From NCBI GenBank assembly GCA_949358305.1, contig OX442318.1, positions 11,266,517 through 11,330,516 on the forward strand: a stretch of DNA of 64,000 bases. The letters run 5' to 3'. Both the position numbers and the translations under genes were made by a program. Below, in pieces: positions 10,858 to 38,600 of this stretch. This DNA comes from Strigamia acuminata (taxonomy: Eukaryota > Arthropoda > Chilopoda > Geophilomorpha > Linotaeniidae). Numbering within the stretch: position 1 is the first letter of the stretch; the number at the start of each line of letters is the position of its first letter. The notes under the pieces were generated by a model. The model did no database searches and was not told the DNA's origin. It saw nothing but the letters and a program-made list of their open reading frames with translations.

Positions 10858-13800
10858 ATGGATAAAGTCAATCGCCACAGACCATTTGGCCAAATTCAAC
10901 AACTAAGAAGACGAAAATTGGTTCAACTTGTTCGCATTACTTTGGCGGAGCAATCGAAGACCCCATCATTCGTCAAATCTCTGAAAAAGATGTCGGAGAA
11001 GAAGAAAAATATTCGTATTTTACTTTATACATTCCTAATTATCAATTTGGCGGCTTGTATTTACCAAACAACGGATCGAATATTGCATCTCTTGGACGAA
11101 CCAACAGCAGTTGATGCACTCTTGATTGAAACAACACACGGTTCCTTCCCCAATGTTTATATATATCCAGGAACTACACAAGAACTCAACAATTTCATTG
11201 CCAAATTTAAGAAGGAGGAAGGCTTTGGATGTCAAAGAAATAGTTACAATTTTAATCTCAATGACATAATAAAATATATAAGAACACATAGTTACATAAC
11301 TGAGGCCTATTTCACTACGGTAAATCATTTATCCTTTTTCTTCTTCCCGTAAAATAAAATTTGATCGAAAATGTAAAACAAAATAAATATTTACAGCCTA
11401 AATTAAACATTAACCTTACTATTGCAAATTACGAGACTCTAACTTGGCCCGCTGCACAATTATTCAGTCGTAAGTAAAAAAAAAATTACTGTCCCCTTGA
11501 TTATTCCAAGTTTCTGCTTTTTACTTACTGTAGCATTACCAATTCCATACGGGAACAATGCTTACAAGATGTTGATTAAACTTAAGTTTCCCGAGGATTG
11601 TAATTTTGTATTTGTAAGTATTTAATTTAGATCAAACATGAGATCATTTAATAATCTTTCTTGAAACTATTCTATTGAATTTCAAGTCTCTTGTAGATCC
11701 GTCAATAGTAGTTTATCATTTATTCGAAGAATTTTTCCATTTCCTAGACATAGGCAGTAGTAAAAAGGCAGTTACAACTACGGTGCAAAAAGTAAGAATA
11801 AAATTATTTATTAACTGTAGCATAAATTGTTGATAAATTTAATTGTGACAAGTGATTTTTTGGGTAGTTGTAATTTGCAAAAATGTCTATGGACGTGTTT
11901 TTTTTTTAATGCAACAATCAGGACAAATTCATAGTTAAAGCATGTTGTTCTATCAAATATGGCCTTTATGTGATTACGAGACAAAAAGAAAGTGTAACAT
12001 AAACGCTCTGCAGGCAGAAGAGTAGAAAATCGACCTGGCATTTGTGTGGTCACTAACAACACGACACAACCCAAATGGCTCAGTTCAATCCGACCCGCCA
12101 GTTGGAGTTAATAGTTGAGGGATATGACCCTGATGACATCACATCCGACACTAAACCAATGGGAAAAGGTACTCTTGTACCCATGGTGAAAGAGTGGACT
12201 ACAAAGGGCCCAACATACTATTTAGGCCCCAGAATTAAGCTTACTTAGGAACAGCTATGCTTCACACCTTGCTGTTCTCCACTCTTGTTCACCATGGAGA
12301 TGCTTAGGGATTGTGCCAGCATGTCAATCCCTGTACCGTCAGTGATAGTGATCCATGGGCCAGAATGAACAGCTGACTGACCATGCTGCAGCAATGCAGC
12401 AGTAGCAACAGGAGTCATAAGAAGCTGACCCTTAGACACTGAATAAAGGCTATAAACCATTAAATACAGTCTCTTGTGATCTTTTCTATACATGCGTCTG
12501 GCATTGTTTAGGTGTTCCCATGCCATAATGGCATCCGTCCACTCTCACATACCTTTCAATAGTAATATATTTGTAACCTTTGTTTTAGTACCACTTTATC
12601 AACACTAAGAAAAATCCATGCGATAATAACTTAGATGATTGCTTACGTCCATGTCTCGTGAAAGAAATGAAGTGCAAGTAGGTGTTTGAATACAACTCAT
12701 TAACACAACTTGTGTGAAGGAACAGGTTTGTCTGTAAAAAACTACCATTCAGCACAGTTCAAAAATGTTCTTTCACTGACTGTTATTAATAAAGATGCAA
12801 CAATAAGCGAACAAAATTCGAAAATTATTAAAATAAAATTTGTCATAATAGATATCCATTTCATGAAGCAAAAAATCTGCCAGAATGCAGTGACAAAGAC
12901 ACTTTGAATCAACAGCACAAGTTACAACTATTAATCTTACATAACCGGACAATTTCAAATTGTAAATGTCGTAATTTATGTGACATAACAAGTTTCAGCC
13001 TAACATACGATACAACAATTGATCATGAAAATATAATGGAAGTTTATGTTGTCAACAATTATGTTCGAACATTAGTTGAACATTTTTCATACGACATCAT
13101 CGATTTGTTATGTGACATTGGAGGTAACATCGGCCTCTATTTCGGCATGTCTTGTTTAATGCTCGTTGAAATATCTCTTCACGTGTTCAAAATACCCATC
13201 AGAAGTACAACAACAGCTGAAGCCAAGTTGAAAGTTGAAATTCAAATGGCACTAGACAAAATGAAGAAAGAAAAAAAAACATTTTTAAAAACTTTACTGA
13301 GAATCATTACGGCACTATTCTTAATCGCGATATCGGTGTATTACATTTACAACTTGGTTGTTTCTTATTTCGATTATCCTCTCTTGAGAACAATTAAACT
13401 CGTTCAAGACGACATCATTCATTTTCCACTCATTGTTCACTGTGGAGATAATGCAATAATATCTCAAGCTAAAAAGAAACTGAAAACGACTGATTGTAAT
13501 CGTTTACAACTGTACAATTTACTCCATCAGTCATCTGAATTTGCAAACAAATCACTGCAATTGTGGAAAGCCTCCTCTGCTTTTGATTACTATAACAATA
13601 TCCAAAAGGATTACTTCAAGGTAAAAAAAAATATTAAATCATCAGGGTAAATGTATATAAATTTAGTCAACTTCTACAGAGATCGGGCAAAAGTTTAAAT
13701 GACATGTTTTATGCCAATGTGTCAGTTCTGCCAACATTATTTGGAATGTGCACAGCGTTTAAAAAAAGTAACGTAGCAAAACTATAAATAAACTTTTCTT

Positions 13801-14669
13801 TTTCTAATTATTTTTTATTTCTTATTTTTCCTAATTATTTTTCCATAGTTGACCTGCCATTTGCAGAAAAGAAAAACCTTTTGATTATTAATGACCAGCT
13901 CCAAGAAGAGTGTAGTTTAAACCAAGCTGTGAGATACATGTTCTGCACATTCTCATTGCACCAGTTGTTAATTGGAATTTATGTATTCCAGCATTTCATG
14001 TTCCCACAAAATCAATTTTTTCACCCAAAACATCTTATTTACGTACGAAACAATTGGGAAACTCACATTGACATAGCGCGTCAAACGGTAACTTCAGATA
14101 ATGATAAATCCACTGTTATTTAAATTAGCACGTTCATTCTTTCCAGTTTGTTCGAATCAATACTCCAAAAAGTCAGTGTAGACCAAATGATGAAGTTTTA
14201 GAATGTGAAGAAAAATGTTTTGGGACAAAACTAAAACAACATCATTTCAATTGCCGGTAACTTTTAACAAATTGAGTATTTACTTTGTATTCTTCATACG
14301 TATATTTGTGTTAAATATTGTTTCGTTACTAGATTGCCATTCATGAATGAGAGTAAATTGCAACTCTGCTCGTCTGAAGAGACAGCTAAAACAACGCACG
14401 AAGCATATTTAAAAATACAATTCGAGACAAATCCCAGGAAAGACTGCTTCTGCCATCCACCCTGTCAAGAAACCATATTTATTCCTTCATTAATAAAATG
14501 CAGTTCTGACGTATACGAAGGAGTTAAATACACCATTGAAAAGCAAATCCGAGAAATAATTGAAGAACAGAGAGTAGTTTCCATCATAAAGTTATTGTGC
14601 AACATTGGATCTATTATTGGTATCTTGACTGGTCTCTCGTTATTTTCTATTGTTGAATATTTTATTTGA
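10858..14669 (+). CDS. two-domain DEG/ENaC (pickpocket-like) channel, gene 1, intact
   Basis: Ten exons (10858-11319, 11397-11469, 11534-11613, 11687-11791, 12589-12677, 12852-13620, 13680-13767, 13849-14087, 14147-14256, 14333-14669) join without a frame break into 783 residues. Domain 1: TM1 about residues 50-68, a cysteine-bearing ectodomain, and TM2 with LLCDIGGNIGLYFGMS at about 353-380. A basic linker of about 33 residues follows. Domain 2: TM1 about 414-440, the post-TM1 motif FPLIVHC at 461-467, GMCTAF, and TM2 with LLCNIGSIIGILTGLS near the C-terminus (GLS at 772-774). Exon 6 alone encodes TM2 of domain 1, the linker and TM1 of domain 2. DEG/ENaC proteins are trimeric, amiloride-sensitive sodium channels that normally carry one such domain per subunit, so this is a natural concatemer at the plasma membrane. 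Gating stimulus is unknown. Confidence 0.88.
12070..12560. repeat. insertion in intron 4 of channel gene 1
   Basis: Intron 4 is 797 nt against about 60-250 nt for the others, and the excess is this block. It carries a small plus-strand frame (12075-12248, 57 codons, begins MAQFNPTRQLELIVEGYDP). A minus-strand frame (about 12245-12555) includes REWTDAIMAWEHLNNARRMY. A related fragment lies at about 15655-15735 in the opposite orientation. It is probably a remnant of a dispersed mobile element, but I do not recognise the proteins. Confidence 0.5.
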
Positions 14670-14749
14670 CCACCATAATATCCCCCGACACCTTAATTCA
14701 TTCAATTTCAAGGTTACTTGTTTTCTTATGTGCACAAAAGTCACTTTTT

Positions 14750-14755
14750 AATAAA
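14750..14755 (+). terminator. polyadenylation signal of channel gene 1
   Basis: AATAAA lies 81 nt after the stop codon, a usual distance for a short 3' UTR. It is the first such hexamer downstream. Confidence 0.5.
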
Positions 14756-16359
14756 TCTGACACCAGGCACAGCACGTCGCACGTGCATTAATAAGTTTTG
14801 ACAACACATCGTAAAACAAAAAATATAACATTAAATGGAGTGATATTGTAGATTCAATAGAACTTACACGATAAATTTTAGACAGTCATTTTAACAACGA
14901 AAGTTATTTTAAAGCTGTAATAAATTTTTAACATTCCACTAAGTGTGTTTAAAATTGCAGTCACCTATAGACTACAACCCCTGGCAGAAAGTATGCGATA
15001 CTTTTCCTGCTTCAAAAAATCAGTAGAAAAAGTTGCTGTAAAAAACTGGTGTTAAAGAATTAGATGGAATCAATAAAGGGCTTTAAAATAACCATATTTA
15101 ATCTAACTTTTGGCTATTTCCAAAAAAAAAAAAATTCTAAGCTGAGAAATCCCATGTCTAAACTGCACTATAATCTGTCTAATTGGCGGCCATTCTTATA
15201 TTATGTCAACACCATAAGCAGTTTGTCGTTTAAAAATATATTGTTTAATATAAATGACTTTTCTGATTCAGCTGATGTATGTGATGTTGATGTTTTCGTA
15301 ATTTTCAACATTACGAAATAAAAACAAACACCCAAAACACTTCAAACAGCTTTTTAAATGCAGCTGCCTGTTTGTTTTAATAACTTGAACAATATTACTC
15401 CTGCACATTTCTTTTTACTTTATGCTCTTAGAGAGTTTACCACTTCTGACAATATTTTCTCATATAAAAACCCAAATTAAGCAAAAACCTCAAATGAATT
15501 GGGCCTCATTCTTGGGGATTTTTGTTTACACTGTAATTAAAAGTTTCATCTTCTTCATAATGATTATTACCCTCCCTCTCACTGCAAAATTTGTAAATCT
15601 TGAATAATAAATTGCTAATTGTTACCAATTTAATTGATTACCACATTATAGCTTATGGTGCGAGAGTGGACGGATGCCATTCGGGCATGGAAATGCCTAA
15701 ACAGCGCACAACATGTTAGATAGAAGTGAACATAAGAGACTGTATTTGATATAGCAAACTTTCGTTATAACTAACCGATTTCTCGGATCGCTTGCAATAC
15801 ACTGTACTGTACAAACATTAAAATTTCATTGTACAAACACTAAAATTTCATTGATTTAAATGCATTAAAATAATATTCTATCCACTATTATCACGTTAAG
15901 TATGAACAATGCAAATATTTTCACCCTCTGGTAATATTTTGCAAACTTGTCCATTGTAATTATGTATAAATTTGTTTTAGACTACTGTGTGAATTAACTA
16001 ATTGAATATAAAAATATTGATTACAATGTTATTTACCAACTGTAAACGCAAATACTAGTATAAAAAGGTCCCAAAAATAAACGTCCAAACACTATTATGT
16101 AATTTTTTGTCACCAGTACACCGTATAATAATTCACAATATTATTGAAAAATGTTATTTAAGCTAAATGATTTTTCAAATGCAAATGTTTTCTCGCTATT
16201 TCGAATTGTTTCTGTAGAATACTTGTACTAATTACCAAGTGTAATAAAATTCATTTACCACAAGCAATCTAATCGAGAACTATTTATGAAAATATTCCTG
16301 AACCTCGTATCAAGAAAATGGCACAAATTTCATCATACATGCTGATTCTGAGCGGTCAA
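14756..16359. other. AT-rich spacer
   Basis: No gene is supported. Position 15655-15735 resembles the intron-4 repeat at 12470-12555 in inverse orientation. Short open frames at 15064-15321 and 15422-15607 lack motifs. Confidence 0.4.
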
Positions 16360-16895
16360 GACCCAATCACAGAAGACTTAATGATGACTGAACCTTATAT
16401 CCTCGTTCGACCTTGAATGTGAACTAGGTTGCTTCACCAATGCGCGTTGCCCGAAGCGCCTTGTGATTTCGTGCGATTTCGTGCGACTTCAAGGTTGGCC
16501 TAACTCCCATTGGCCAAGCCATTTCACTTGTGTAGTGACACATAAAAGTAGATCAAAACTCCAGAATTGCATTAGATGTACAGAGAAAAAACTATTAACA
16601 CTACTATTAACAATAAAAAAGTATTGTTAATATGTGTACAGTATAATATTAATATTCAAATCTTAATATACACTTACAGTACTTGTAATCCAAAAAGTGG
16701 CTCAGCCCTGGTTTCGGCAACGAGAGCTGTTGGATACACTTTTCGAATTCAAAACCCGTTCACCGCATCTTGAATTTAAATTTTAAATTTAGATAAACAT
16801 ATCTTTCTTGTTGATAAACACTTGATCAATCATCAATCTGTTGGTTACAACATCACATTAGAATAGAAATCTCAATTGTGAGTCAAGTGTGATAT

Positions 16896-16901
16896 TATAA
16901 A
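16896..16901 (+). promoter_or_regulatory. TATA box of copy D
   Basis: TATAAA followed by TTGTGTGCAATCAGATAGCT, the same block as in copy C. It lies about 155 nt before the ATG. Confidence 0.45.
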
Positions 16902-17053
16902 TTGTGTGCAATCAGATAGCTCAGAGAATAATAACCTTTCTTTTCCCGGATTCAACTCACAATTCGTGATGCAAAAACACATTCCAAACACATTCTAAAT
17001 TTTATCCACATTGGTAACAGAAAGCCAGCCAAAACCATTAAATCACAAACAAC

Positions 17054-19390: not shown

Positions 19391-19417
19391 GTGTAAACTG
19401 TTACATTTATTACTTAG

Positions 19418-22553: not shown

Positions 22554-25109
22554 ATGCTAAATCAATGCAGATTCAGAATAGATCGGCGTATTATAACATC
22601 TTCAATCGTCGAGTCCATCGATAAAGATAAGAATGTAGCACCAGAGTTTTACATCCTTCTAGACCGCACGCGTTCACAAAGATTTCGTATTTTTTGGGGG
22701 TTTCTTGTCCTGATCTGTTCTCTCATGTATTGCTACCAAATGTACGATCGCATCTCATACTTCATGACAGAACCAAAAGCTGTTGATGTATTTCGAAAGA
22801 AAATTGAACACTTTCCAATCCCACCAGCGTCTATTTGCACAGAACATAATAATTACTCAAGAGATTATATGATACAAAAGAAATTATATAACTATCTGCC
22901 CAAACTCATAGAATTACCTGATTTCGACCTGTCTAAACTTTGGAATTTAGACTACCGATTCGATTTAATTGAAAACTACACATTTGAAAAAGCTAGCTAC
23001 AAGGTAAGATGCATATTCTTATGTCTGCATTTAAATTTTATTTTTGTCTTTTCTTATAGCCAAAGATACCCATCGGTTTTCTTCAAAAACACAAACTTAC
23101 ACCATTTGGCACATGTACGCAAGTAACCAGTTAAGTATTACAGATGCAGCATTTTGCCTAGAACAGCACACCAAATTTGCCAAATCATAATTTTTTTGAG
23201 TTTAACCTTCCCATAGCCATGGTAGGTCAAAAAAATTACAGAAGTGGAAAAATCACTGTAATTCTTTTTTTTCTGATAATTAATTAATGAGGTTAACTTG
23301 TATTCCTCAAAAACTTTTTTTTCTTATTTTATAATGTCTAAATACAAATAGTTTTTCAATTATTATTAAGATAATTTAATATTTATAACATAAAACACCC
23401 TTAATGGGAGCGCCGTACACTGCTTTGCCATCTGTTTGCACTAGGTGGCGTATTAAAATTAGTCCTACAACATGTGCTTTTACCAGGAAAAATGGGATTG
23501 CACCAGGAAAAATGTGATTCTGCACATGCGCAGAAGCATTTTAAAAGAAGGCCGATTTGACCGACCTTAGCTAGCAATGGTGGAAACTAGGCTTGGCTAT
23601 GGGAAGGTTAAGTACAGTATGTTTCGTTGTGTAAACTGTTACATTTATTACTTATTAGGTAACAGGTCATTGCAACATTCTGAACTTACAATGCCATTAA
23701 CATTAGAAGTGCCTTTAGCTTTTGGACCCTATACCGTACAGTACACATATACGGAGTAATATTTATTCTTCTACATTTGAGTCTGTTTTAACGCCTCATT
23801 TTAGATCTCACTCGATCTACCATTTGATTTTCAATTCGTTTATGATATCGCGTTACCAGTTCAAATATCTATTGGCTTCACCATCACAAAAGTAAAAATA
23901 GTGATCAAGTAAACTAATACTGCACATGCTAAGAAACTAATAGGTCAAATGCTAGTTTGTCGATACTGCTTTTTTCTATAATGCTAACCTGCAAAAATTC
24001 TAAAATGTAAGCTTACACTTTTATAAGTTTGAAACGCTTGGCCCTATTAAGACAGCCTTTTGGAGTTAAATTACATTATTGTCGTGTTGCGTGTGTTACC
24101 ATTACAATAACATCGTTATAACGCAGTGCACTAAGCAGAAAGCATAACTTAACGGCACTGTTGGACATGGTACACTATACATTACAACGGGTACCGGTAC
24201 TGTACCGATATCGGTACCACGGTACTTTTGCCGGAAAAACATACCGATACCGCACCGCAGTACGTTTGCTGGAAAAACATACCAGTACCGCTGTACTTTT
24301 TCCAGAAAAACGTACCAGTACCGCGGTACCCTCGTACCGATCCAATGTACCATGTATCGAATTGCGGTACATCTCACGGTACATGAGAAAACGCGAGATG
24401 TCACGCAATGTTAAAAAATTTCATTTTTTTTTCCACAAAATAACATATTTTTATGAATGTAGAATTAATTTGTAAGTTTTATCGAATTTTCAACAAATTA
24501 CAAACTTACAAATTCCACGAGTTATAAAAAAAATTGTTGTGTACTTTACTTAAGGTCTGTCTGATACCATAATTATCAGATACCAGCTGATACCGATATT
24601 ATTTTCTCCACAAACAAAAACTATATTAGCGTAATTTTTTCCAGTATTCCTTTTTAAGCACGAAAGAAGAGCCATGTTTGCCGAACGAAGAGTTTAAATT
24701 GTGCGGTATACAATGTAACGAACGGAAGTTCAAGAATGATCCCTGTTGCATGCCATATTCATTTCTAAAGCAATGTAACAATCCTTGTAACAATTCTGAA
24801 GGTACAGCCAACTTGATTCTAAACCACAGGAGGATAATAGGAGGACTAATGCCAATTACTGACTGCAACTGTATAAGAAGCTGTGAAAATGAAGTTTACG
24901 ATTTACAAGTTGAATTAATAACTTTGAACAAAGTTCGGGTTAATTTCCACTTGGCTGATCAACACCTAACTGTGTTTCAAGAAAGATGGCTCTATGACTC
25001 CATCTCTCTACTCTGTGACTTTGGTGGGAATCTCGGTCTTTGGTTGGGTTTTTCACTCCTTTCTCTAATTGATTGTCTAATTGGTTGTGACGATGACTAC
25101 CCGGGATAG
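22554..25109 (+). CDS. two-domain DEG/ENaC channel, gene 2, first-domain half up to the gypsy insertion
   Basis: Exons 22554-23003, 23060-23129, 23659-23735, 23805-23891 and 24645-25085 join in frame to 375 residues. TM1 lies around residues 47-66, followed by FPIPPASIC and then PFGTC in exon 2. The ectodomain carries DPCCMPYSFLKQCNN, and TM2 reads LLCDFGGNLGLWLGFS (GFS 363-365) close to the end. Exon 5 corresponds to exons 5 and 6 of gene 1 without the intron. After Gly375 the LTR of a gypsy element begins; translation would run through seven LTR codons (CDDDYPG) to a stop at 25107-25109. The 382-residue product would be a complete single-domain subunit. Without the insertion the frame continues at 35618 into the second domain. 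Confidence 0.85.
23202..23611. mobile_element. piggyBac-type MITE in intron 2 of channel gene 2
   Basis: The termini are TTAACCTTCCCATAGCCA and its inverted counterpart TGGCTATGGGAAGGTTAA, with TTAA at both ends, the target duplication used by piggyBac elements. The interior of about 400 bp is noncoding. It is absent from the same intron position in gene 1. Confidence 0.65.
24183..24400. repeat. GTACC-rich tandem repeat in intron 4 of channel gene 2
   Basis: About four imperfect units of 40-50 bp with a GGTAC..TTTTGCCGGAAAAACATACC pattern, many palindromic (GGTACCGGTACC-like). The array could form hairpins. Open frames here are repeat artefacts. Confidence 0.6.
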
Positions 25110-26533
25110 GAATTAAGACTAAAAGGACAAGTGAAACTGCAGAGTGTAGTAAAGTGCAAAGAATGAAGCGTTTATGTTTCTCAAAACATAGAACATTTAT
25201 TCAAGTCAAAATAAGTTATATAATAACTATGGCCGACAAAATGGCCAGTAAAATATGTGTGTAACTAACTATACAAACGAGTGGCTCAAAAAGCCCTAAT
25301 AACGTTAACAGTTGTGTTCAGCCTTGAAATAAGAGTGTGTAAAGTTCTTATTTCGGGCGTAAAAGGTGTCGTCTGCAATCGGACTGATTGTCGTCTGCTT
25401 CGGTTGGTTCTGTGTAACCAAATTATCCGAGGAATGCGGTTGTCTTTGCTGCATCGTCACAACTTTGGGTGACCATTGGTTTAAATATCTATTCGTAGAT
25501 ATTTACCAATTGGTCTATTTATGATTATCAAAATAACCATAAATAAAAGTTACTCAAAGTTAGACTTCGAAACTCATGTTAAATTTACGAATAAATCCAA
25601 ACATGCAAAGGTATGAATTGAGTTATTAAATTACAAATAATCTAATAACCAAACATAACTAAAAAAACCTGTATAAATAAAACGATTATGAAAAGACCCT
25701 GTCGATTCTGTTGCACCAAAGTACAACCAGCCCAGAATTGAATCAATGGCGCTCACGTCAATCCAACACTAGGTTTGACCCTAATGTCTCGGCGGAAAAA
25801 GGAATTGAGCACGGCATAAAATGCACGTGCCCCTACAACGGAATGTTGGCATGTAGTCAGGTAAAGGGTTTGAGCACGGCATTTTACTGCACGTGCCCCT
25901 ACAACGGAATGTTGGCATGAAGTACGGAAAGGGTTTGAGCACGGAATTTAATGCACGTGCCCCTACAACGGAATGTTGGCATGAAGCGAAGCGAAGCGAA
26001 GCGTAGAATAAGGGCTCAAGTAGATATCAAACAGAAACAAAAACAAGAGCGAGCTATTTCCGGTTTACACTGGAATATATGCTCAGTAGAAACAATGAGT
26101 TGACCATTGCTCCAATAGGAACACTGGTCACTCAAAACTGTCCAATCCTAGTAAATAGGAAGTGGATACAGGGGACACAGTCTTCTACAAAGTCTGTCCC
26201 AGGAAGTGGATACGGAGGACACATTTGCAATTAAGGCTATTGTCTTAATTCAAAGTGTATCTTCAAACACTGTGGGTGGTGAGGGGTGACTTAATCCTTT
26301 TGCCCAGGTGTTGTTATAATTTGTCCAAATCATAACACAACTGGAGGAATAACGACTCAACTATATCATACTAGTATGATATAATATCTAAGGATACCGT
26401 GGATTTATATAAAACCTTTAATTTTATATAAATATCACATAAATAACATGTATATTCGAATTTCCCGCCGAAATGGGAAATAGCGCCATCTATCGGTGAA
26501 CTTGGGACTAAATATGACGTCATGACCGTCACA
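25086..26533 (-). repeat. 3' LTR of gypsy 1
   Basis: 1448 bp, matching 34167-35614. On the minus strand this is the downstream LTR. It provides seven codons and a stop to the interrupted channel frame. Confidence 0.93.
25807..26000. repeat. three 65-bp tandem repeats in the LTR, each with CACGTG
   Basis: Units start at 25807, 25872 and 25937 (GAGCACGG...), each containing TGCACGTGCCCC and CTACAACGGAATGTTGGCAT. They are followed by a CGAAG run. The same array is in the other LTR at 34888-35081. Repeated CACGTG E-boxes in an LTR may act as enhancer sites for bHLH factors; this is inferred. Confidence 0.8.
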
Positions 26534-26548
26534 AGTCCCCCTTAATTA
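26534..26548 (-). other. polypurine tract of gypsy 1
   Basis: On the minus strand, AATTAAGGGGGACT directly precedes the 3' LTR, the expected place for the plus-strand DNA primer. Confidence 0.65.
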
Positions 26549-27001
26549 GGCTGAAGTGCAAACACTTCGACTAATTCTCAAAAACAAACAAGTTCACCGG
26601 AAATCATCATTAATCTCAACTTTTATCGTAACCGAAGATCAAACTAATTTTTCGAGAAAACTTACGATTGAATACGTGTCGGAACTCGAATCTCGGCAGA
26701 TCTAGACGAAGGCAATGGTTGCGATTTGTCAAGTGAAGTGTCACGCTTTGAGTAATACGAAGGTGAGAAAAACTACTCTCTAACTAGGGGTCAACTCTAA
26801 TTTCGAGGGATCTTCTCATTGGTTCGTAATTACTCATCCTGGAATTTGTTATTAATTCACAGGGGTAGACACTTGTATGCAAATGTTTACACGAGGATTA
26901 ATTTAAATAAATAACTTCGTGGAAATCGAGTCACACAAAATTAAATTTAGTGAGTAATTTCGAAAAATTATTTACTAAGGCAATATATAAGTTCCAAAAA
27001 A

Positions 27002-30000
27002 TCAGGCCGATTTCTTTTGATTTCTGACTTTTCTAATTCGAGGGGATTTTTCTTTAAATCCCGTCCAAGTTTTTTGACGTAATGATTTTAGCAATTGTAC
27101 AAAATCGGTTACGTATTTAGGATTAGGTTTGGTAACACGTTTTGGCCTTTCGGCGGGTGTTTCCAATTTTCGTTTTTTACGAGATTTCTGAGGAACCTCG
27201 TCTTTACGACTCTCTATGGGAATTTCGGTTTCCATCGGGATATTTTCTTTTATTAATTTCTCGGAATTAGTAGCGTGTTCCTCCATCCATTTGGGGGTGG
27301 GATGAGGACCGCTTGTTCCTACTCTTTGGTCTATTGTCCATTCCTCGATCGGGTAGGAAGGGATGTAAGGCGACAAATCTTGGATATTCACTGATGGTTC
27401 CTTGGAACCATCAGAGATTTTCCTTAAAGCGTAAGCGCTACCGCCGCTGAGAACCGCCGTGATTTCCCACGGTCCGTTTCTCTTTTCGGCGAAACCTGCT
27501 GAGATTCCCTTATCTTTATTGGATAAGATGTGTGTTGCCTTCCATACTAAATCTCCAACAACAAAATCACAAATATAAAATTTATCTCTGTGAATTTTAT
27601 CGTGTTTTTCATAATTCCGCTGTATTTTTCTATGCATTTCCTGGTGTGCTCTTTTGATCACTTCCAGAATGCTAAATACATAAGCTTCGGGGTTTTCTCT
27701 GTCGAACTTGATCGCATGTTTTATTATGCGAGGATCGAACGGCAAAGGAACAGTTCTTCCCGTGTTAAGTAACATCGGAGTTGTATTCGTCGCCTCGCTC
27801 TTGGTCGTGTGCATTGAAAAGGCGAAATGGTTTAAATATTTCGGCCAGTGGGAGTGCACATCGGAATAAATTGCCAATAACATTTTCAGGTCTCTATTGG
27901 CCCTTTCTGTAATGTTAGCGGCGGCGTGATACGGACTGACGTGAATAATGTCAATGTGGTTTCTTTTGCAGAATTCTTCAAAAACAGTGCTCACAAATTG
28001 TCTTCCATTATCAGATATAATCTTTTTGGGGTAGCCCCATCTGTGAAATACTTCACTTAGGCGATTGACAATGCATTCGCTAGAAGCTGTGGCTAGTGCG
28101 AACACTTCCACCCACTTCGTACAGTGATCAATGACTACTAAGATCCATTGAAGCTGTGATCTACCCGCTGGTTTTGGTCCCATCAAGTCGATGCTGACCG
28201 TCTCCCAGGGGTTCGTCATGTTATGCGGCACATAACCAGATCGTCTTTGTTGATGCTGGTTTGGCTTGTATTGCTGGCAATGAGGGCAGCTGCGCACGTA
28301 GTTGCGCACGTCTTTTCTCATTTTTGGCCAAAAATACATGAGCTTTGCTCGTTCTAGAGTTTTGCTCATACCTGCATGGCCAGTGAGTGGGTGACCATGA
28401 CAGGCAAACAACGCTCGTTTGACTAAAACACGTGGAATCACGGCTTTAAAACCATTTCCCGAGTCGTTGAGTTCTTCTTCGTAAGTTGGACAGAAGTAGA
28501 TGAGCATTTGACCGCCATCTTCTTCTTCTTCGTCCAAACTATATCTTTGGGTAATATTTAACCAATATTCATCGGTAATTTCCTTTTTCTGTTCATCTGT
28601 GGCTTTCAGATAAACTAGAATTTTACTACACTCCTGATCTTTCAACTGCGCGTCAATGATTTCACGACGAGTTGGAGGAGCTTCTTTTAAAACATCAGTT
28701 AGTGCACTGTAAAGAGTTGCATTTTTGTTTTTGCAACAATTATCAGTATCCTCCCCCTTTTCTCCAGAAATAGCCGATACGTCAGCATTGGCTGCTTCTG
28801 GAAAATCGTCAAAATGAACGTGTAAATTCGAGAATGTCGCACAACGTTTGTCGGAAGGTTTTAGACACAAGTGTCTATTTCCTGTCCAATTTGGGAAAAA
28901 TTGGGTGATCTCCTCCGGCTCTAGGTAGTCATCCGCTGGAGTATCCAGTGCTGACAACGGAGCACGTGAAAGAGCGTCGGCTACTTGATTTAAAGCGCCT
29001 CGACGAAATTCGATTTTGAACGCGCCGCACTGAATGCGCACGGCCCATCGACCAAATCGACCCGATGGTTCCGGTGTGCTCATTAGCCATTTTAAAGCCT
29101 GAGCATCCGATTCTAGGGTGAAGGTAGTGTATTCTAGGTAGGGGCGAAACTTGTCGACTGCCCATACCACCGCCAAACACTCTAACTCCGGGGTAGAATA
29201 ACGTTCTTCTGCTCCTCTCAAAACTCGGCTGGCGTAAGCAACCGGTTTTGGGTGTAAAACCATTTTTTGCTTTTTGGCGTCAAATACCTCAACGTCTTGG
29301 CAAAGGACGGCACCGAGACCGTCGTGGGACGCGTCGGTCAAGACAACGAATTGTTTAGTCATGTCCGGCATATGTAATGCTTGGTCTTTGTCGCATAAAA
29401 TGTCTTTTATGCGCTCAAAAGCGTCTTCTTGTGCCTTTCCCCAAACGAATTTTGCGGAATCGTGCATTATACTAGTTAATGGACGAGCTATAGTCGCATG
29501 GTGCGGAATAAATTTTCGAAAAAAGTTAGACAGTCCATGAAAGCGTTGAATATCCTTAGAGCAGGTAGGAGTTGGAAATTTCCTAACTGCTGACGTCTTA
29601 TCTGGGTCGGGCAATAATCCCTCAGAGGTAATATAATGCCCGAGAAATTTCAAGGCGGTCCGTCCAAACTTGGATTTGGCCTTATTAATAGTTAAATTGG
29701 CCTTATCCAGTTTTTCCAGGACGTCCTTAACATGTTCTAAATGTTTTTTCCAACTAGTTGAAAAAATAATAATATCGTCGAGATAGACTAACGCATGATT
29801 GTAAAGTGCTTCGCCCATTACTCCACTCATTAAATGTTGAAACGAAGAGGGTGCGTTGCACAAACCAAAGGGCATTCTTTTAAATTGGAATTTCCCTTTG
29901 GGCGTGTAAAATGCTGTTTTACTTTTATCCTCCTCTGCCATTTCCATCTGATGGTAACCTTGAGTCAGGTCCAGAGAAGTAAAATATTTTGCTTTGTTAG

Positions 30001-31138
30001 TATTATGGATTAACAGATCAATGCTTGGCATCTGGATCGTGTCAATTACCGTAATATTATTTAGCCATCTGTAATCGATGCACAGTCGATAAGTCCCGTT
30101 AGGCTTAGCGACTATCACCGGGTGACTGATGTAGGGACCGGTAGAGGGCTCAATTAGGCCCTCTGCTTCAAGTTCCTCTACGAGCTCTGTCATAATCGCC
30201 TTCTTGGCCGGATTATACATTCTATATGGCTGCAATTTCCATTTAGCACCTTCTTTGAACTTGATGCTATGTTTTGCAACGTTGGTGCAGCCAACCTTGT
30301 CACGAAAGGCATTTTGAACACTCAAAATTACCTGTCGTAATTTCTCTTTATTCTCGTCGGAGCTGTCGCAATCTGCCACTAGTCTCTCCGCCCAATCAGC
30401 TGGGGTGTGAGTTTCGTCCCCCTTAGCATCAATTGCGCGGAGTCTTGCTAGACTGCAGTTCAACTCCGTGGTTTCATAAGGAGCAGTCCAACCAGGCATA
30501 AAATCACAAGTGAAGACAGCCCGGAGTGGATTTAAATTTATTCCAGTCCTTCTCATGAAGTTGTGGCCAAGAATTAGGCCACACACATTCTTTTCGAGAA
30601 TTATGAAATTAGTCGGGGTCATTTTAGTTTTGTTAGCCCAATTGACACAAAGTGTCACTTGACCTAACGGCTTGTGGTCGATTCCTACGGCACAAACACG
30701 CATTCCTTTTGGACATTCTTGGATGAATTCCACTGGAATCTCGGTGTTTGACAGTAGTTGAATCCCAATAAAGCATTGGGTCGCCCCCGAATCCATTAGA
30801 GCATTATAATTTAATCCTCCAATATTTATGTTCATTCGAGGATCGTCGATGAAACGAGTAGCTGATTTACTGTCGTAAACTTTGCTAATTTTTTCAACTC
30901 TATCTTTGGGGACAAAAATCTTGCCAAGTTGGGATCTTTTAATTTTTCCAAACTTATTCTTGATTTTATATTTATTCCAATTTCCGTGAAAAATGGATAA
31001 ATTTTCGAGTTGATTCGTCATCGAGTCTATTCCTTCGTTCACTCCACCAGTAGAACTCGTGGCTTGAACGAGAGTCGGAATCAAATCAAAATCAATCTCC
31101 ATATCAAGTGGGTCGAGTGAATTTTTTGAATCACTCAA
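27002..31138 (-). CDS. pol: gypsy 1 Pol polyprotein
   Basis: 1378 codons from the first possible internal start, but the frame is open back to the gag stop at 31263, so Pol is most likely made by -1 frameshift. Numbered from the residue at 31138: aspartic protease DSG at 116-118; reverse transcriptase with YLDD at 452-455; RNase H with TDAS near 601; integrase zinc finger H914/H921 and C951/C954; catalytic core residues D984, D1043 and E1079; and a C-terminal GPY/F-type module (GPWEITAVL). The order protease-RT-RNase H-integrase is that of Ty3/gypsy. All key residues are present and there is no internal stop, so the element may be active. Confidence 0.93.
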   Translation of the reverse strand: MSDSKNSLDPLDMEIDFDLIPTLVQATSSTGGVNEGIDSMTNQLENLSIFHGNWNKYKIKNKFGKIKRSQLGKIFVPKDRVEKISKVYDSKSATRFIDDPRMNINIGGLNYNALMDSGATQCFIGIQLLSNTEIPVEFIQECPKGMRVCAVGIDHKPLGQVTLCVNWANKTKMTPTNFIILEKNVCGLILGHNFMRRTGINLNPLRAVFTCDFMPGWTAPYETTELNCSLARLRAIDAKGDETHTPADWAERLVADCDSSDENKEKLRQVILSVQNAFRDKVGCTNVAKHSIKFKEGAKWKLQPYRMYNPAKKAIMTELVEELEAEGLIEPSTGPYISHPVIVAKPNGTYRLCIDYRWLNNITVIDTIQMPSIDLLIHNTNKAKYFTSLDLTQGYHQMEMAEEDKSKTAFYTPKGKFQFKRMPFGLCNAPSSFQHLMSGVMGEALYNHALVYLDDIIIFSTSWKKHLEHVKDVLEKLDKANLTINKAKSKFGRTALKFLGHYITSEGLLPDPDKTSAVRKFPTPTCSKDIQRFHGLSNFFRKFIPHHATIARPLTSIMHDSAKFVWGKAQEDAFERIKDILCDKDQALHMPDMTKQFVVLTDASHDGLGAVLCQDVEVFDAKKQKMVLHPKPVAYASRVLRGAEERYSTPELECLAVVWAVDKFRPYLEYTTFTLESDAQALKWLMSTPEPSGRFGRWAVRIQCGAFKIEFRRGALNQVADALSRAPLSALDTPADDYLEPEEITQFFPNWTGNRHLCLKPSDKRCATFSNLHVHFDDFPEAANADVSAISGEKGEDTDNCCKNKNATLYSALTDVLKEAPPTRREIIDAQLKDQECSKILVYLKATDEQKKEITDEYWLNITQRYSLDEEEEDGGQMLIYFCPTYEEELNDSGNGFKAVIPRVLVKRALFACHGHPLTGHAGMSKTLERAKLMYFWPKMRKDVRNYVRSCPHCQQYKPNQHQQRRSGYVPHNMTNPWETVSIDLMGPKPAGRSQLQWILVVIDHCTKWVEVFALATASSECIVNRLSEVFHRWGYPKKIISDNGRQFVSTVFEEFCKRNHIDIIHVSPYHAAANITERANRDLKMLLAIYSDVHSHWPKYLNHFAFSMHTTKSEATNTTPMLLNTGRTVPLPFDPRIIKHAIKFDRENPEAYVFSILEVIKRAHQEMHRKIQRNYEKHDKIHRDKFYICDFVVGDLVWKATHILSNKDKGISAGFAEKRNGPWEITAVLSGGSAYALRKISDGSKEPSVNIQDLSPYIPSYPIEEWTIDQRVGTSGPHPTPKWMEEHATNSEKLIKENIPMETEIPIESRKDEVPQKSRKKRKLETPAERPKRVTKPNPKYVTDFVQLLKSLRQKTWTGFKEKSPRIRKVRNQKKSA

Positions 31139-31260
31139 GTATGGTATTGTTAACCCCTTTGTTAAAAGTTTGGGTTGTTCTAACGATACCGCATCGATAG
31201 CCTTATCCAGCGAAATAAAAGGTTTAATCGGGGGTTGAGAAATCGTGTCAACCCCCTGAA

Positions 31261-33369
31261 TTAGTTTTTTTTATCTTCACTAGGAGTGGGAACTGGGGCA
31301 GTCGCAGCTTTAAGATGTGATTTAAATAAATCCGTCATCGTTGCTTGAAAGTCTGCGAGCTTCGCGTCAAGTTTTTGATCGAGAAACTCGGCCGTTACCC
31401 AGTTGGGTTTGGGTCTTTTAGACAGGTCAAGTGTTGAAGAGGGGTTAAAGCGCTTGTTGGAGTCGCTTTTTCCCCCATTTCCTTCTTTTAATTTGTTGGC
31501 GAGCTTGAGACAATTTCTTTTTATGTGTCCCGGCTCGTGACAATAGTAGCACTTTCCAGTAGTGCTTTCAAAATGAGCTGCGAACATTCTCTCCATTGAA
31601 CTCTCCTCGACTTCACCGTCGGTGTCGTCGGAGTCTTGTTCATTCGAGTTTTCTTCTTCCGTGTGAGTAGCACGAAAAGAAGTTTTGCTTGGAAATAGTT
31701 TTGATTCCTTGTTGTTTTTAGCAACAGAGGGAGTCTCACCATTGTCACATTCGAGTTCCGCAGCAAGTTGAGTTGCGTTCTCGAACCTGCAGCGATGTGT
31801 ACCGACATATTGAAGTATGTCGTCCACTGTACAATCTCCGTAGAGTCCGTGCGTCATTAAAAGTGAGAAACTCTCTTGGTTAATGTTTTTAAACAAACTG
31901 GTGGTACCTGCCATGTCGCCAGGCGGTATTTTCCCTTGTTCCTGCGTGAACCGCAGGAGGAAACAATACAGTGATTCGTCACTGCGTTGTTTCACATTGT
32001 CGAGTCGTCTCGCTCGAGTGAGCGGGACCAGATCGAATCTCTTTACAAACATTCTTTCGAAAGTCTTCCAATTCGAGAATTGGTGGTTATTTTGATGGAA
32101 CCATTTTTGGGCATGGCCCAATAAATGCCCGGGTACATCTTGATGTACCATGTCATCCAGTGGCACTCCTCTACCGAGCGCGGCTGCTTTCACGATTTCT
32201 AAAAATCGAGCAACCTCTTTTTGGTTCCCGTCGAAAATCGGAATTTCCAAGCTTTTTCCAGATTGTCGATTTTGGTTTTGATGATTACGGCTCTGACCAG
32301 ATAATCCTTGAATTATCTGTCTCAGGCTGTCGTTAGATAAAGGTGGCGCAGAATTATTCGAAGAAAAATCCTGACTCATTCTCGGTGAATGGCTTCGCCG
32401 AAAATGATTTCGATTGTTTCGATCGTTTTGATCGTTTCGATCATTCCGATCGTACTGGTTATTTCGATCACTCCGATCGTTCTGATAATTTCGATTATCT
32501 TCCTCGTTCTGATCGTTACGATCATAACGTGGGGGATAAAAATTATTACGCCCACCTCGAGAGTGAGGGCCGTAATTATCTCTTCCTCGATGATTATAAT
32601 TAAAATTATCATCATCAAAATCGTTATAATTATTATTATTACGATCATTGAAATTGTTTCGAACCGGAGAAACGTCACGTGAACGATTTGAGCGCGAGGG
32701 GGAAATTCGCGTAGAATTTCCTCGTCGTGGGGAATTTTCTCGTCGTGGACTTAACCTTCTGCGATAAAAGTTAGGTGAGCGCAGTTCGGGTTGAGGAGTT
32801 CGAGTATTTCTTAACCCATTATCTTCACGGCCGTCGGGAAACGGATCACGCCAAGGCGGGGTGCGTCTGCTTTGTTCCCGCTGGCGTCGTGAAGTGGGAG
32901 ACGCTGAACGTCTCCTTTCCGGCGTTGCAGGTCCGATCCGATCGATTTCTCGTTCTTGACGCGAACTGCTACGCGGTGGTGGATTCGGCTCAGAATTTTC
33001 CGCTGCGAACAACGGAGCTTCTTCGCGCGGCCTCGATCTAGCCGCTTCGGGATCTGGATTCCTATCACGCTGGTACGTGTTAGGAAGCGTTCCCCGGCTA
33101 GTCTGCCTATTTACCACTATCACTTCGGGTGAAAGTGGTTGAGGAGGCGGGCGTCCACGGCAATTCTCCGTGAAGCGCCTCGCTTCTCCCACTGAGGAAA
33201 ATTGTGTCATATTTAACTGATAGTGACGACAAAATACTTCGAGCTCATCAGGTATGGGTAAATGTTCGGTCCTGAGGGAGTTTGGATTCGAGCGTTCGAT
33301 AGGCCGATCGCCGTCTCTACTGCCCCCGTGCACTGAGCCGAACAACACCATAGACTGATCGCGTGGCAT
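31261..33369 (-). CDS. gag: gypsy 1 Gag
   Basis: 702 residues. The N-terminal part is Pro/Arg/Ser-rich, with an Asn/Asp/Arg low-complexity stretch (about 230-345). A retrotransposon capsid-like segment (about 365-540) follows, then one CCHC zinc knuckle CYYCHEPGHIKRNC at 607-620. Gag packages the element RNA in cytoplasmic particles. The ATG at 33369 starts the frame. The frame ends with codons AAA AAC TAA, which form the slippery site for Pol. Confidence 0.9.
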   Translation of the reverse strand: MPRDQSMVLFGSVHGGSRDGDRPIERSNPNSLRTEHLPIPDELEVFCRHYQLNMTQFSSVGEARRFTENCRGRPPPQPLSPEVIVVNRQTSRGTLPNTYQRDRNPDPEAARSRPREEAPLFAAENSEPNPPPRSSSRQEREIDRIGPATPERRRSASPTSRRQREQSRRTPPWRDPFPDGREDNGLRNTRTPQPELRSPNFYRRRLSPRRENSPRRGNSTRISPSRSNRSRDVSPVRNNFNDRNNNNYNDFDDDNFNYNHRGRDNYGPHSRGGRNNFYPPRYDRNDQNEEDNRNYQNDRSDRNNQYDRNDRNDQNDRNNRNHFRRSHSPRMSQDFSSNNSAPPLSNDSLRQIIQGLSGQSRNHQNQNRQSGKSLEIPIFDGNQKEVARFLEIVKAAALGRGVPLDDMVHQDVPGHLLGHAQKWFHQNNHQFSNWKTFERMFVKRFDLVPLTRARRLDNVKQRSDESLYCFLLRFTQEQGKIPPGDMAGTTSLFKNINQESFSLLMTHGLYGDCTVDDILQYVGTHRCRFENATQLAAELECDNGETPSVAKNNKESKLFPSKTSFRATHTEEENSNEQDSDDTDGEVEESSMERMFAAHFESTTGKCYYCHEPGHIKRNCLKLANKLKEGNGGKSDSNKRFNPSSTLDLSKRPKPNWVTAEFLDQKLDAKLADFQATMTDLFKSHLKAATAPVPTPSEDKKN
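31264..31270 (-). promoter_or_regulatory. -1 ribosomal frameshift site A_AAA_AAC
   Basis: On the minus strand the heptamer A AAA AAC is in the gag frame immediately before its TAA stop. The pol frame is exactly -1, and after slippage the next codon would be CTA in the open pol frame. This is the canonical X_XXY_YYZ arrangement. A downstream stimulatory structure was not evaluated. Confidence 0.8.
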
Positions 33370-34146
33370 GGAGAAGGATACACTGAAGGAAAATAAGTCG
33401 GAAAACTAGTAAAGCCTTTTTTAACACTCGAAGAATATTCTAGTTCTTCTTAAAACGCAATTTGTACACTTGTACAAGAAGTGAAATACACTTTTAAATC
33501 CCACAAAAGAATAAAAGTTAAACTACGCGTTTTTTCAACGAAAAATACGCTTAAATTAAACTAATAACGGAAATATTTCCTACCTTTTCGCGATCTGAAG
33601 TGGCTACGGGCACAAATGGTCTGGTCTCGGTCAAAACTGGTCGGCAAAACGGTCAAGAAGTGGTTCGAAATGGCACTGGTTCAATGTCACGTCAGGTTGG
33701 TCAAGCTGTTGGAAAGCAAGTGAGAACTTGGCACTTTTGCTTTCTTGAATCCTTTGTCCAAATGGTCAATCGTGATTGGAAAATTGAGAAATACCTGCGG
33801 AGTTTAGTCCCAGATATTTCTATAATCCAAAAGTGATGTGACCTCCTTCGAATGGCATTGTTCCTGGCTCAAATCTCACATTCTTGCCCTGCTTTGGATT
33901 ATTTCAACAGTTTTAACCTTCCAGTGAAAGAATAAAACTTAGAAAAAATAAGCAAAAAATTCTCTTTGAAATATTTTTCAGAAAAAAAAAAAAAAATATA
34001 CAAACAGATTTTTCACGAGAAATCCAAAATTTTTTAGTTAGATTTTTGTACAAAAAATAACTTAGAAAAATTTTCATTTTTCAAATTTTCAAATTTTGGT
34101 AAAATTGCACTTTTTAAACTCAGAGTTCACTTTAAAATTGCAACCT
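33370..34146 (-). other. gypsy 1 leader (5' untranslated)
   Basis: About 780 nt between the primer-binding site and the gag start, noncoding, with long A and T runs. It probably carries packaging signals. Confidence 0.6.
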
Positions 34147-34164
34147 ATCTCGGTAGAACCTCCA
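34147..34164 (-). other. primer-binding site, tRNA-Gln type
   Basis: Two nt after the 5' LTR, the minus strand reads TGGAGGTTCTACCGAGAT, complementary to a tRNA 3' end of ATCTCGGTAGAACCTCCA. From known eukaryotic tRNA-Gln sequences this is the expected tRNA-Gln 3' terminus. Confidence 0.75.
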
Positions 34165-34166
34165 CG

Positions 34167-35614
34167 TGTGACGATGACTACCCGGGATAGGAATTAAGAC
34201 TAAAAGGACAAGTGAAACTGCAGAGTGTAGTAAAGTGCAAAGAATGAAGCGTTTATGTTTCTCAAAACATAGAACATTTATTCAAGTCAAAATAAGTTAT
34301 ATAATAACTATGGCCGACAAAATGGCCAGTAAAATATGTGTGTAACTAACTATACAAACGAGTGGCTCAAAAAGCCCTAATAACGTTAACAGTTGTGTTC
34401 AGCCTTGAAATAAGAGTGTGTAAAGTTCTTATTTCGGGCGTAAAAGGTGTCGTCTGCAATCGGACTGATTGTCGTCTGCTTCGGTTGGTTCTGTGTAACC
34501 AAATTATCCGAGGAATGCGGTTGTCTTTGCTGCATCGTCACAACTTTGGGTGACCATTGGTTTAAATATCTATTCGTAGATATTTACCAATTGGTCTATT
34601 TATGATTATCAAAATAACCATAAATAAAAGTTACTCAAAGTTAGACTTCGAAACTCATGTTAAATTTACGAATAAATCCAAACATGCAAAGGTATGAATT
34701 GAGTTATTAAATTACAAATAATCTAATAACCAAACATAACTAAAAAAACCTGTATAAATAAAACGATTATGAAAAGACCCTGTCGATTCTGTTGCACCAA
34801 AGTACAACCAGCCCAGAATTGAATCAATGGCGCTCACGTCAATCCAACACTAGGTTTGACCCTAATGTCTCGGCGGAAAAAGGAATTGAGCACGGCATAA
34901 AATGCACGTGCCCCTACAACGGAATGTTGGCATGTAGTCAGGTAAAGGGTTTGAGCACGGCATTTTACTGCACGTGCCCCTACAACGGAATGTTGGCATG
35001 AAGTACGGAAAGGGTTTGAGCACGGAATTTAATGCACGTGCCCCTACAACGGAATGTTGGCATGAAGCGAAGCGAAGCGAAGCGTAGAATAAGGGCTCAA
35101 GTAGATATCAAACAGAAACAAAAACAAGAGCGAGCTATTTCCGGTTTACACTGGAATATATGCTCAGTAGAAACAATGAGTTGACCATTGCTCCAATAGG
35201 AACACTGGTCACTCAAAACTGTCCAATCCTAGTAAATAGGAAGTGGATACAGGGGACACAGTCTTCTACAAAGTCTGTCCCAGGAAGTGGATACGGAGGA
35301 CACATTTGCAATTAAGGCTATTGTCTTAATTCAAAGTGTATCTTCAAACACTGTGGGTGGTGAGGGGTGACTTAATCCTTTTGCCCAGGTGTTGTTATAA
35401 TTTGTCCAAATCATAACACAACTGGAGGAATAACGACTCAACTATATCATACTAGTATGATATAATATCTAAGGATACCGTGGATTTATATAAAACCTTT
35501 AATTTTATATAAATATCACATAAATAACATGTATATTCGAATTTCCCGCCGAAATGGGAAATAGCGCCATCTATCGGTGAACTTGGGACTAAATATGACG
35601 TCATGACCGTCACA
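34167..35614 (-). repeat. 5' LTR of gypsy 1
   Basis: 1448 bp, matching 25086-26533. Its plus-strand end happens to place an ATG (35603) in frame with the second half of channel gene 2. Confidence 0.93.
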
Positions 35615-38600
35615 GGTTGTGCCAAAAGAAATAAAAGATGGCTAGGGAGCAACCGTAACAATGTCATTAACAAATTCGAAAAACACTTCAACAAACATGA
35701 AACAAGATTCAAAATGTTTGCTCAAAAAATAGAAACTGATAACGCACAGAGCAAAAGCAAATGGATCCGTGCAATTTATTTTAGTTGTACGATACTCTGT
35801 TGTTATATTCTGCAAAGTCGAATAAACAGATATTTGTCGGGACCCATTCAAAAAGCAGTCAAGATTGAAGATCCTCCAGTCGTCACATTTCCAAACATCA
35901 TTACTTGTCCAGGGCCACACAGTGGAAAACTCAATTTCCATAAGAAAAAGTATTTCGACCGCTATCTCAAGATGAACACAACCAAGTGTGAAGTGGATGC
36001 TTATGACCTTATACATTTCAATAAAATAGATGTGGAGTCTCTTTGGAATACGAAATTTCAAACTAAATTGCAAGATCTTGACACCTCTCAGGTAATGATG
36101 TAAGTTATTAGTAGGGTGTGCAGTTAATATATTTTGTGATTGCGGTGCGGTTTCTATAAAAAACCGCGATGCATGCAATATATCGCAAAATCGCAAAAAC
36201 CGCAAAAAACCGGAAAAAACCCATAACCGCAAAAAACCACATAGCCACAAAAATCAGTTTTTTATCGGTTTTTATTGATTTTCACTAATTTTTGTTCATT
36301 GTTATTGTTTTTTATTTGTTTTTATCTGTTTCTATCCGTTTCTATCCGTTTTTCTTGCATGTCTTTGACTGTTTGTTTTTGTAAGGTTTTGCAGTTTTAT
36401 GCGTTTTGCAGTTTTATGCGGTTTTGCGGTTTTTGCGGTAAATTGCGTTGCGGTTTTTTTGTAATAATCGCAGTGCGGTTTTTGAAAATAATAAAACCGC
36501 AGTGCAATATTTCACACTCGTGAACAGCCCTAGTCATTAGACGCGTTCAAAGTTTCTGTTTTTACCATTTTTCCATTTCTGTAAATGGAATGGACTTCAA
36601 AAATAGCCAAAAACCATCACAAAACCGCAAAACAAAAACCATGCTATACTCTGGCTCACCGTTAGAAGCTCAGCTCTTCCTATTGGCTGAGCCTTAATCC
36701 TTTCAATCCATCCCACGCACGACCTGGTTGCAATATCTGAACCAAATGATATCGCGAGCCTTATGTGGTCCGCTGGCTACATGTTCCCCACCCACGATTC
36801 ATCCATTCATGAAGGATATAGTTAGTACAACAGCATGCTATTCGGCATTGCTGTAGTGAATAGGAAGAAGTTTGGACCTGCTCAGAGTATTGCTACATGT
36901 GCTTGGGGATGAGATCGCACAAGTAGGAAGATGATAGAATGAGTCAGTGTGAACTAAACATGATAAAAGGATAAAAAGACAACTACAGAGTACACTTTTA
37001 TTTTACGAAGTGGCTACATTCACGTCCGACGTGAACGTACCGTTTTCAAGGCGCGCTGTGATTCGTTGAGAGATGCATTGAATTACATTGACGAAAAACC
37101 CCCATAGGTGCCTACATTGCTAAAAACAGATAAGGTTAGGTCTGGGGAAGTCTGTTTGTAACAATGTGAGAGAGTCTTGCATTTAAATAAAGAAAGTATT
37201 GACTGCTTAGATAATAACAATACTTTATTTTTTTAAAAATTAAACAATTGTGAATTACACACTCCTGCTGTCTCCTTGTCAACCCGTTCTTTCCCTTTGT
37301 TAGAATTGAAAGTTTGTTTCACGTTATCACCAGGTGATAAAAACGTATCACCTGCATATTGTGCCGACCAATCAGGATCGAGCACATGGGTATATTGAAT
37401 TAGAATAAAGTTGTAAACCTAACCACCTGTCGTATCATTGTATTCCCAACCCTCGAGTGTTTAAACCTACACCCTTTACTGGGTCACTCCACCCCGTGGT
37501 AAAATAAGTCTGAACTTGTCGCCATTGAACCCATGGACAAACAAGCTAGACCAAGCGATGACAACCAAGAGAGATGACAAACAAAATAAGAAAAACTAAA
37601 ATCCTTTGGAACACATATACAACCAACTGTTTTGCCACTGTCTTAATGTCTTGGAACAATTTTCAGAGTTTCAGTAGTGTTGAAATGTATAACAGCAAGA
37701 GTACGTTAAACTATACAGATGGTGTTTGCGTAAAACTTTCATTTGGTAATTATTATTGAGATGAAATCCATCAATTATTATTTTAATTATATTTTTTAAT
37801 CTTTTAAGTGCCAGGAAATTATAAAACAACGTCGGCAGCTGCTATTATGATAATGGAAGTCAATAATATGTGCAAACCTGACATTTCAAATGTAAAGACA
37901 ATTTTAATCAACAAGTTTTTGGTGTAAATAACTTTTATGTTTTGTTTCAGATCTATTTGAGTCCACCTGAAGATCCGAATTTTCCCAATACATTCAAAAT
38001 GGAACTTCCTTCTGCACGTTTTTCTTCAATCTTTTTTAAAATATTACGGGTAAATAAGCTTACACCCAATTGTGTTTTAACACGGTCTTTAATTTTTTAC
38101 TTGATTTTGATTTCAATACAGTCTAGAAAAATGAATTCAATTTTGTTTTCACACAATTTCTTTTGATTTAGCACAGTTAAAAAAAATTGCCTTTTTAAAA
38201 TTTTAATGCAGCTAGTATAAAAACAATTGTATAATCAATAGACACCGTGCATCAGTTTAGTGTCAGATAAATAGAATGCACACTAGTGTGATTTTATAAT
38301 TCTTCTTTCCAATATATTAGGTGGAACACTTGAATACCCTACAAAACCCATGTACTTTAAATGTGAGTGAATATTATCATTGCAAGCAAAACTGTTTGGC
38401 TCAGAAAATGAAAAAACTCCAACTCTGCAGGTCAGATATTTAGTTATTTACATACTGCATCGCCCCTTTCGTCACAATTAAAAACTCATAAGTTGTAGCT
38501 TAACCCTCGCAGCCCCAACCTAAAAAAAATCCCTTACTCACCCAACCCGGGTCATTTTTGACCCCAAGCCGAAAAAATTTTTCCAAAAATGAGTAAAAAT

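Follow-up and report, generated by a model that had tools for sequence, protein, structure and literature searches.

The 64,000-nucleotide stretch of the Strigamia acuminata genome analysed here (assembly GCA_949358305.1, contig OX442318.1, positions 11,266,517 to 11,330,516 of the forward strand; hereafter the window) contains a gene at 10858-14669 in which two DEG/ENaC channel units are joined in a single reading frame. This locus is probably a genuine fused gene for a natural DEG/ENaC concatemer composed of a first transmembrane helix (TM1), an ectodomain, a second transmembrane helix (TM2), a cytosolic linker and again TM1, ectodomain and TM2. The anatomy of the gene is solid, and its predicted expression as one chain is likely. 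The same window appears to hold two such two-unit genes, one of them intact and the other, gene BC, recently cut by a jumping element. In the following the first and second DEG/ENaC units of the intact gene are referred to as unit 1 and unit 2, and those of gene BC as unit B and unit C.

The splice model of the intact gene was re-derived from the sequence. It comprises ten exons at 10858-14669 and nine introns, all of the GT-AG type, with a coding sequence of 2352 nucleotides for 783 residues and no internal stop. The same model had been proposed by the initial annotation, an earlier reading of this DNA, which described ten exons in frame from ATG to stop. The splicing is inferred from the genomic DNA. 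The gene consists of the following features:

10858..11319, + strand: exon 1, start codon (ATG context AAACAATGG), N-terminal tail, TM1 of unit 1 (about residues 50-72) and start of ectodomain 1
11397..11469, + strand: exon 2, ectodomain 1, phase 0 to 1, counterpart of exon 7 in unit 2
11534..11613, + strand: exon 3, ectodomain 1
11687..11791, + strand: exon 4, ectodomain 1; the preceding intron of 73 nucleotides lacks a counterpart in unit 2
12589..12677, + strand: exon 5, Cys-rich part of ectodomain 1, starting at a phase-0 intron position common to the four units of the window
12852..13620, + strand: exon 6 (fusion exon), end of ectodomain 1, TM2 of unit 1, linker, TM1 of unit 2 and start of ectodomain 2
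13189..13290, + strand: linker of about 33 residues, taken as residues 383-416, with 10 K/R and 4 D/E and including Met402 (at 13246) and Met407
13271..13279, + strand: run of nine A (A9) within the linker
13680..13767, + strand: exon 7, ectodomain 2
13849..14087, + strand: exon 8, ectodomain 2
14147..14256, + strand: exon 9, Cys-rich part of ectodomain 2
14333..14669, + strand: exon 10, end of ectodomain 2, TM2 of unit 2 and the stop codon immediately after TM2
14750..14755, + strand: AATAAA, a possible poly(A) signal 81 nucleotides past the stop, one of many AATAAA/ATTAAA in an A+T-rich stretch

An inverted repeat pair (12459-12549 and 15659-15750; arms of 31 and 45 nucleotides, 84% and 87%) flanks exons 6-10 and has the appearance of a dispersed repeat. 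No Rfam family matched the window at the gathering threshold.

Both units are assigned to DEG/ENaC based on profile, topology and the G-x-S motif. The Pfam profile ASC (PF00858), with a curated cut-off of 23.6 bits, matched both halves of the one gene model, unit 1 scoring 38.4 bits and unit 2 scoring 49.2 bits, as the initial annotation had expected. The best match in unit 1 was limited to the C-terminal part (residues 255-377), and its TM1 half was identified by three other means: hydropathy, the alignment with unit 2 and a profile of the N-terminal segments of the window's remaining three units (E 6.6e-07). Four strong hydrophobic segments were detected at residues 50-72, 355-387, 411-445 and 751-783, together with two weaker hydropathy peaks within ectodomain 2 (residues 535-553 and 583-601). 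Five N-glycosylation sequons were detected, all of them within one or the other ectodomain, and the linker is free of them. According to hydropathy, cysteine positions, sequons and alignment each unit consists of two transmembrane helices around a Cys-rich ectodomain, and the earlier claim of two complete TM1-ectodomain-TM2 units was borne out by the ASC matches in both halves, the four hydrophobic segments and the alignment.

The general form of the TM2 motif in DEG/ENaC channels is G-x-S. It was found in both TM2 segments, as G-M-S at residues 368-370 in unit 1 and as G-L-S at residues 772-774 in unit 2. In the report on the centipede channel PDPNaC1 (PMC12714832) the TM2 motif of PDPNaC1 and ASIC is given as Gly-Ala-Ser. 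A His-Gly motif before TM1 was not detected: the chain has a single HG (residue 94), which follows the TM1 helix of unit 1. The family does not require this motif, and the canonical form is described as missing in PDPNaC1 as well (PMC12714832). Where single-unit DEG/ENaC subunits have one unit per chain, the gene model at 10858-14669 has two in one frame, and the two-unit chain would represent a new variant within the DEG/ENaC family. A structure prediction for the fusion exon alone (AlphaFold, no alignment) gave a mean predicted local distance difference test score (pLDDT) of 40.5, which is unusable, and it was not used.

The junction of the two units is located in exon 6, which has the anatomy of a terminal exon of one DEG/ENaC gene continuing into the initial exon of another. 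The content described for this exon by the initial annotation (TM2 of unit 1, about 33 linker residues and TM1 of unit 2) was confirmed, and so was the view that no joining of neighbouring genes is needed to obtain the fusion, given the single exon, the profile matches at both of its ends and the matching introns. The open reading frame (ORF) of exon 6 was matched by profiles that had each been built without the unit under test, on the TM2 side with an E-value of 2.4e-19 and more weakly on the TM1 side (E 0.0034). Since 14% of the 33-codon stretches in 14700-22500 are open by chance, the open linker alone is weak evidence; none of the 256-codon stretches in the same region is open. As profiles that excluded the unit under test recognise either end of exon 6, a chance open frame was rejected as the whole explanation.

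Positively charged loops of membrane proteins are found on the cytosolic side (positive-inside rule), and the lysine-rich, net positive linker is therefore expected to be cytosolic. The genomic frame contains no stop between unit 1 and TM1 of unit 2, and the candidates for a start of unit 2 before TM1 (Met402 and Met407) are all in the fusion frame. A scan of 13101-13620 for splice donors (GT[AG]AG or GTA-type) detected two in addition to the actual donor of the exon, one inside TM1 of unit 2 (13338) and one after it (13496).

The locus might instead encode two separate one-unit proteins, with a separate transcript for unit 2 and translation starting at Met402, an arrangement like that of closely packed or dicistronic genes. 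This seems very unlikely. A methionine precedes TM1 by about 16 residues in unit 2 (13246) and by about 17 residues in unit C (about 35715), and may represent the old start codon of a one-unit gene; furthermore, a title cited in PMC3583452 (Ben-Shahar 2007) refers to operon-like transcription in Drosophila. However, unit 1 has no stop codon of its own, so that its product would always run into unit 2. The tail before TM1 would comprise only about 16 residues if counted from Met402, far fewer than in unit 1 (about 50) and unit B (about 46), and the linker offers little room for a promoter, although one could be located in intron 5.

Unit 1 and unit 2 are old paralogues. They share 23.7% identity over nearly their full length in a blastp comparison (E 3e-11) and 27% in the alignment. 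Unit 1 has one intron more than unit 2, and each of the four introns of unit 2 has a counterpart in unit 1 with the same phase and the same place (within one alignment column). Random placement of introns reached three or more matches in none of 200,000 trials. The agreement in place and phase indicates that the exon-intron organisation of a DEG/ENaC gene is preserved in both units.

Matching introns also allow a different use of the gene. Joining exons 1-7, 2-8, 4-9 or 5-10, that is, splicing between homologous introns, is predicted to keep the frame in each of the four cases and to result in chains of 411, 406, 388 and 381 residues, respectively. Skipping at these introns could yield one-unit chains, which leads to the proposal that the gene is real but that its main products are single-unit chains with the front of unit 1 and the back of unit 2, dropping the exon encoding TM2, linker and TM1. 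The uninterrupted joins of 381-411 residues come near to the 421 residues of PDPNaC1 (PMC12714832). However, in-frame joins are to be expected of homologous units regardless of any use and are no proof of it; among all possible skips 12 of 36 keep the frame, which is the chance rate. Furthermore, four or five exons would have to be skipped together, and the splice sites of exon 6 are ordinary. We therefore regard single-unit chains as the main products of the gene as quite unlikely. As the skips lead to in-frame single-unit chains, a cDNA lacking the linker exon would not on its own disprove the two-unit gene.

Further support for the fused gene is provided by gene BC, which was absent from the initial annotation and is new in this analysis. 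Parts of this second gene of the two-unit plan were detected on the + strand about 8 kb downstream of the intact gene, interrupted by a retrotransposon with long terminal repeats (LTRs):

22554..25085, + strand: first unit of gene BC (unit B), with an exon at 22554-23003, a probable exon at about 23060-23122 and an exon at 24645-25085, stop-free up to the LTR at TM2
25086..35614, no strand assigned: LTR retrotransposon in the exon encoding TM2, linker and TM1 of gene BC, with gag and pol ORFs on the - strand
35618..36091, + strand: remainder of the split fusion exon, encoding the linker and TM1 of the second unit (unit C), stop-free and in frame with 24645-25085
38321..38430, + strand: Cys-rich exon of unit C, with intron phases as in exons 5 and 9 of the intact gene
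55030..55444, + strand: last exon of unit C, with TM2 and the stop codon

The element, with the ends TGTGAC...GTCACA, encodes on its - strand the domains of a reverse transcriptase, an RNase H and an integrase. It is bounded by two identical LTRs (25086-26533 and 34167-35614) of 1448 bases each, and the insertion appears to be very young. It abuts unit B at 25086, directly after TM2, and the tail and TM1 of unit C follow from 35618. If the flanks are joined with one GGT, a single open frame without stop extends from 24645 to 36091. Based on this in-frame junction, TM2 of unit B, a linker of about 50 residues and TM1 of unit C would have been encoded by one exon before the insertion, as in the intact gene. 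The LTR provides unit B with a stop after seven codons and unit C with an in-frame ATG at 35603, and the insertion could thereby have divided the two-unit gene into a pair of one-unit genes. This fission is possibly polymorphic, given that the two LTRs do not differ. The transposon-split gene BC is the best support for the two-unit architecture, and it makes an isolated artefact less likely for the intact gene.

The last intron of unit C (38431-55029) contains a further pair of identical LTRs of 819 bases (40239-41057 and 52282-53100), a pol ORF on the - strand (44967-49154) and long ORFs without Pfam match.

According to raw local scores, the highest-scoring partner of unit 1 among the units of the window is unit B (150 in the C-terminal part, 70 in the N-terminal part) and that of unit 2 is unit C (153 and 62, respectively). 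Such a pairing of like with like would be expected if one old two-unit gene had been duplicated.

Several observations weigh against the interpretation of the locus as a genuine fused gene with a two-unit relative. Like-with-like pairing is not firm, since the z-scores of the C-terminal parts are similar for unit 1 with unit 2 (19.6) and for unit 1 with unit B (19.3), and the best partner of unit C in the N-terminal part is unit B (67) and not unit 2 (62). A maximum-likelihood quartet test rejected none of the three topologies, with the concatenated data slightly favouring the pairing of unit 1 with unit C. Two exons of gene BC, a middle one in unit B and the second one in unit C, were not detected, and the gene may not have been complete. 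The repeat flanking an LTR element is usually 4-6 bp long, and the GGT on either side of the element in gene BC comprises just 3 bp. Codon usage does not single out the frame of the linker, which scored 0.173 compared to 0.168 and 0.065 for the other two frames. Furthermore, the linker frame hinges on the A9 run: it closes two codons on if one A is removed and about 30 codons on if one is added. Finally, partial copies of unit B are located at 19501-19739 and 19874-20168, about 86% identical to 23742-23975 and 24618-24912, which lie in and before its last exon. The stretch 19501-20168 seems to be a broken duplicate within the array, and local sequences can accordingly be dead. A six-sequence tree of the C-terminal parts had weak support values (43-75).

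An array with partial copies and retroelements with identical LTRs, an A9 run at which a single base decides the frame, and the share of short stretches that are open by chance would suit a relic or an error, that is, a dead fusion in a decaying array or an open linker resulting from a misassembled A9 run. However, no stop and no broken splice site was found in the ten exons. If the A9 run were one base off, unit 2 would furthermore be left without an in-frame ATG above the run, and its first methionine would be residue 535, inside the ectodomain. Gene BC, which has the same plan, seems to have been open across its linker until the very recent insertion. A relic or an assembly error consequently seems unlikely to us, and a genuine fused gene remains the preferred explanation.

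The fused gene presumably originated by the loss of the first stop codon, of the intergenic DNA and probably of most of the second N-terminal tail. Its product would be translated as a whole chain with extracellular ectodomains and an intracellular linker, and would occupy two places of a trimer. Candidates for the third place are a unit from a further two-unit chain, a single-unit subunit encoded by another gene and the gene's own single-unit splice form. The product is likely to act as a subunit of a gated sodium (cation) channel of the sensory type known from arthropods, in which two different paralogues would be fixed at a ratio of 1:1.

A more far-reaching scenario, which we consider rather improbable in its entirety, would combine these features: the genome would harbour a family of natural DEG/ENaC concatemers, two of them in the window; the intact gene, by splicing at its four matching introns, would supply a 2+1 trimer of fixed subunit order from one locus; and the LTR would just have turned gene BC back into two one-unit genes by means of a stop and a start.

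DEG/ENaC channels are trimers of one-unit subunits, with a homotrimer described for PDPNaC1 (PMC12714832). A natural two-unit chain, if true, would be a concatemer made by evolution that holds two paralogues at 1:1, and it raises the question of what fills the third place. Gene BC, presumably first fused and then cut by a transposon bringing its own stop and start, would allow fusion and fission to be compared in one animal.

The nearest relatives with solved structures are two centipede channels, PDPNaC1 of Scolopendra (PDB 9jf7) for unit 1 (E 6.3e-10) and BRTNaC1, the Broad-range thermal receptor 1 (e.g. PDB 8ymw), for unit 2 (E 1.3e-07), in a comparison with PDB chains, a library that may contain few arthropod channels. 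Both share the Cys-rich region and TM2 with the units of the window, with 22-31% identity in the C-terminal parts, but their chains carry a single unit (421 and 431 residues in the PDB). PDPNaC1 is reported as a homotrimer encoded by a gene of nine exons (PMC12714832). No natural two-unit DEG/ENaC protein was found in the literature searched, which is a weak negative as the spelling 'DEG ENaC' may miss the usual form and subscription papers are mostly outside the search. Automatically predicted genes with two ASC domains are present in databases. In Drosophila, operon-like transcription that is said to concern DEG/ENaC genes likewise places neighbouring genes in one transcription unit, but there the reading frames and proteins are separate, whereas the gene described here has one reading frame. 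Covalent doubling of a repeat unit is known from the two-domain channels of other families, K2P and TPC. There the number of units in the pore is a multiple of the two carried by each chain, which does not hold for a trimer.

A parallel in plan is provided by engineered ASIC concatemers, in which two to four units are arranged head to tail in one chain (PMC4529235, PMC10329638). A dimeric ASIC1a fusion generated typical currents, with lower bands that may represent cleavage products, and its authors argue for a tetramer (PMC4529235). Trimeric ASIC2a/3 concatemers were functional, and the stoichiometry of heteromers has been determined with such man-made constructs (PMC10329638). The stoichiometry puzzle raised by the initial annotation stands in so far as two units do not fill a trimer evenly, but it is softer than stated given these functional dimers and trimers, which suggest that a two-unit chain is compatible with channel assembly. 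The engineered concatemers are man-made and join identical or close subunits, whereas in Strigamia acuminata the joining is genomic and concerns old paralogues.

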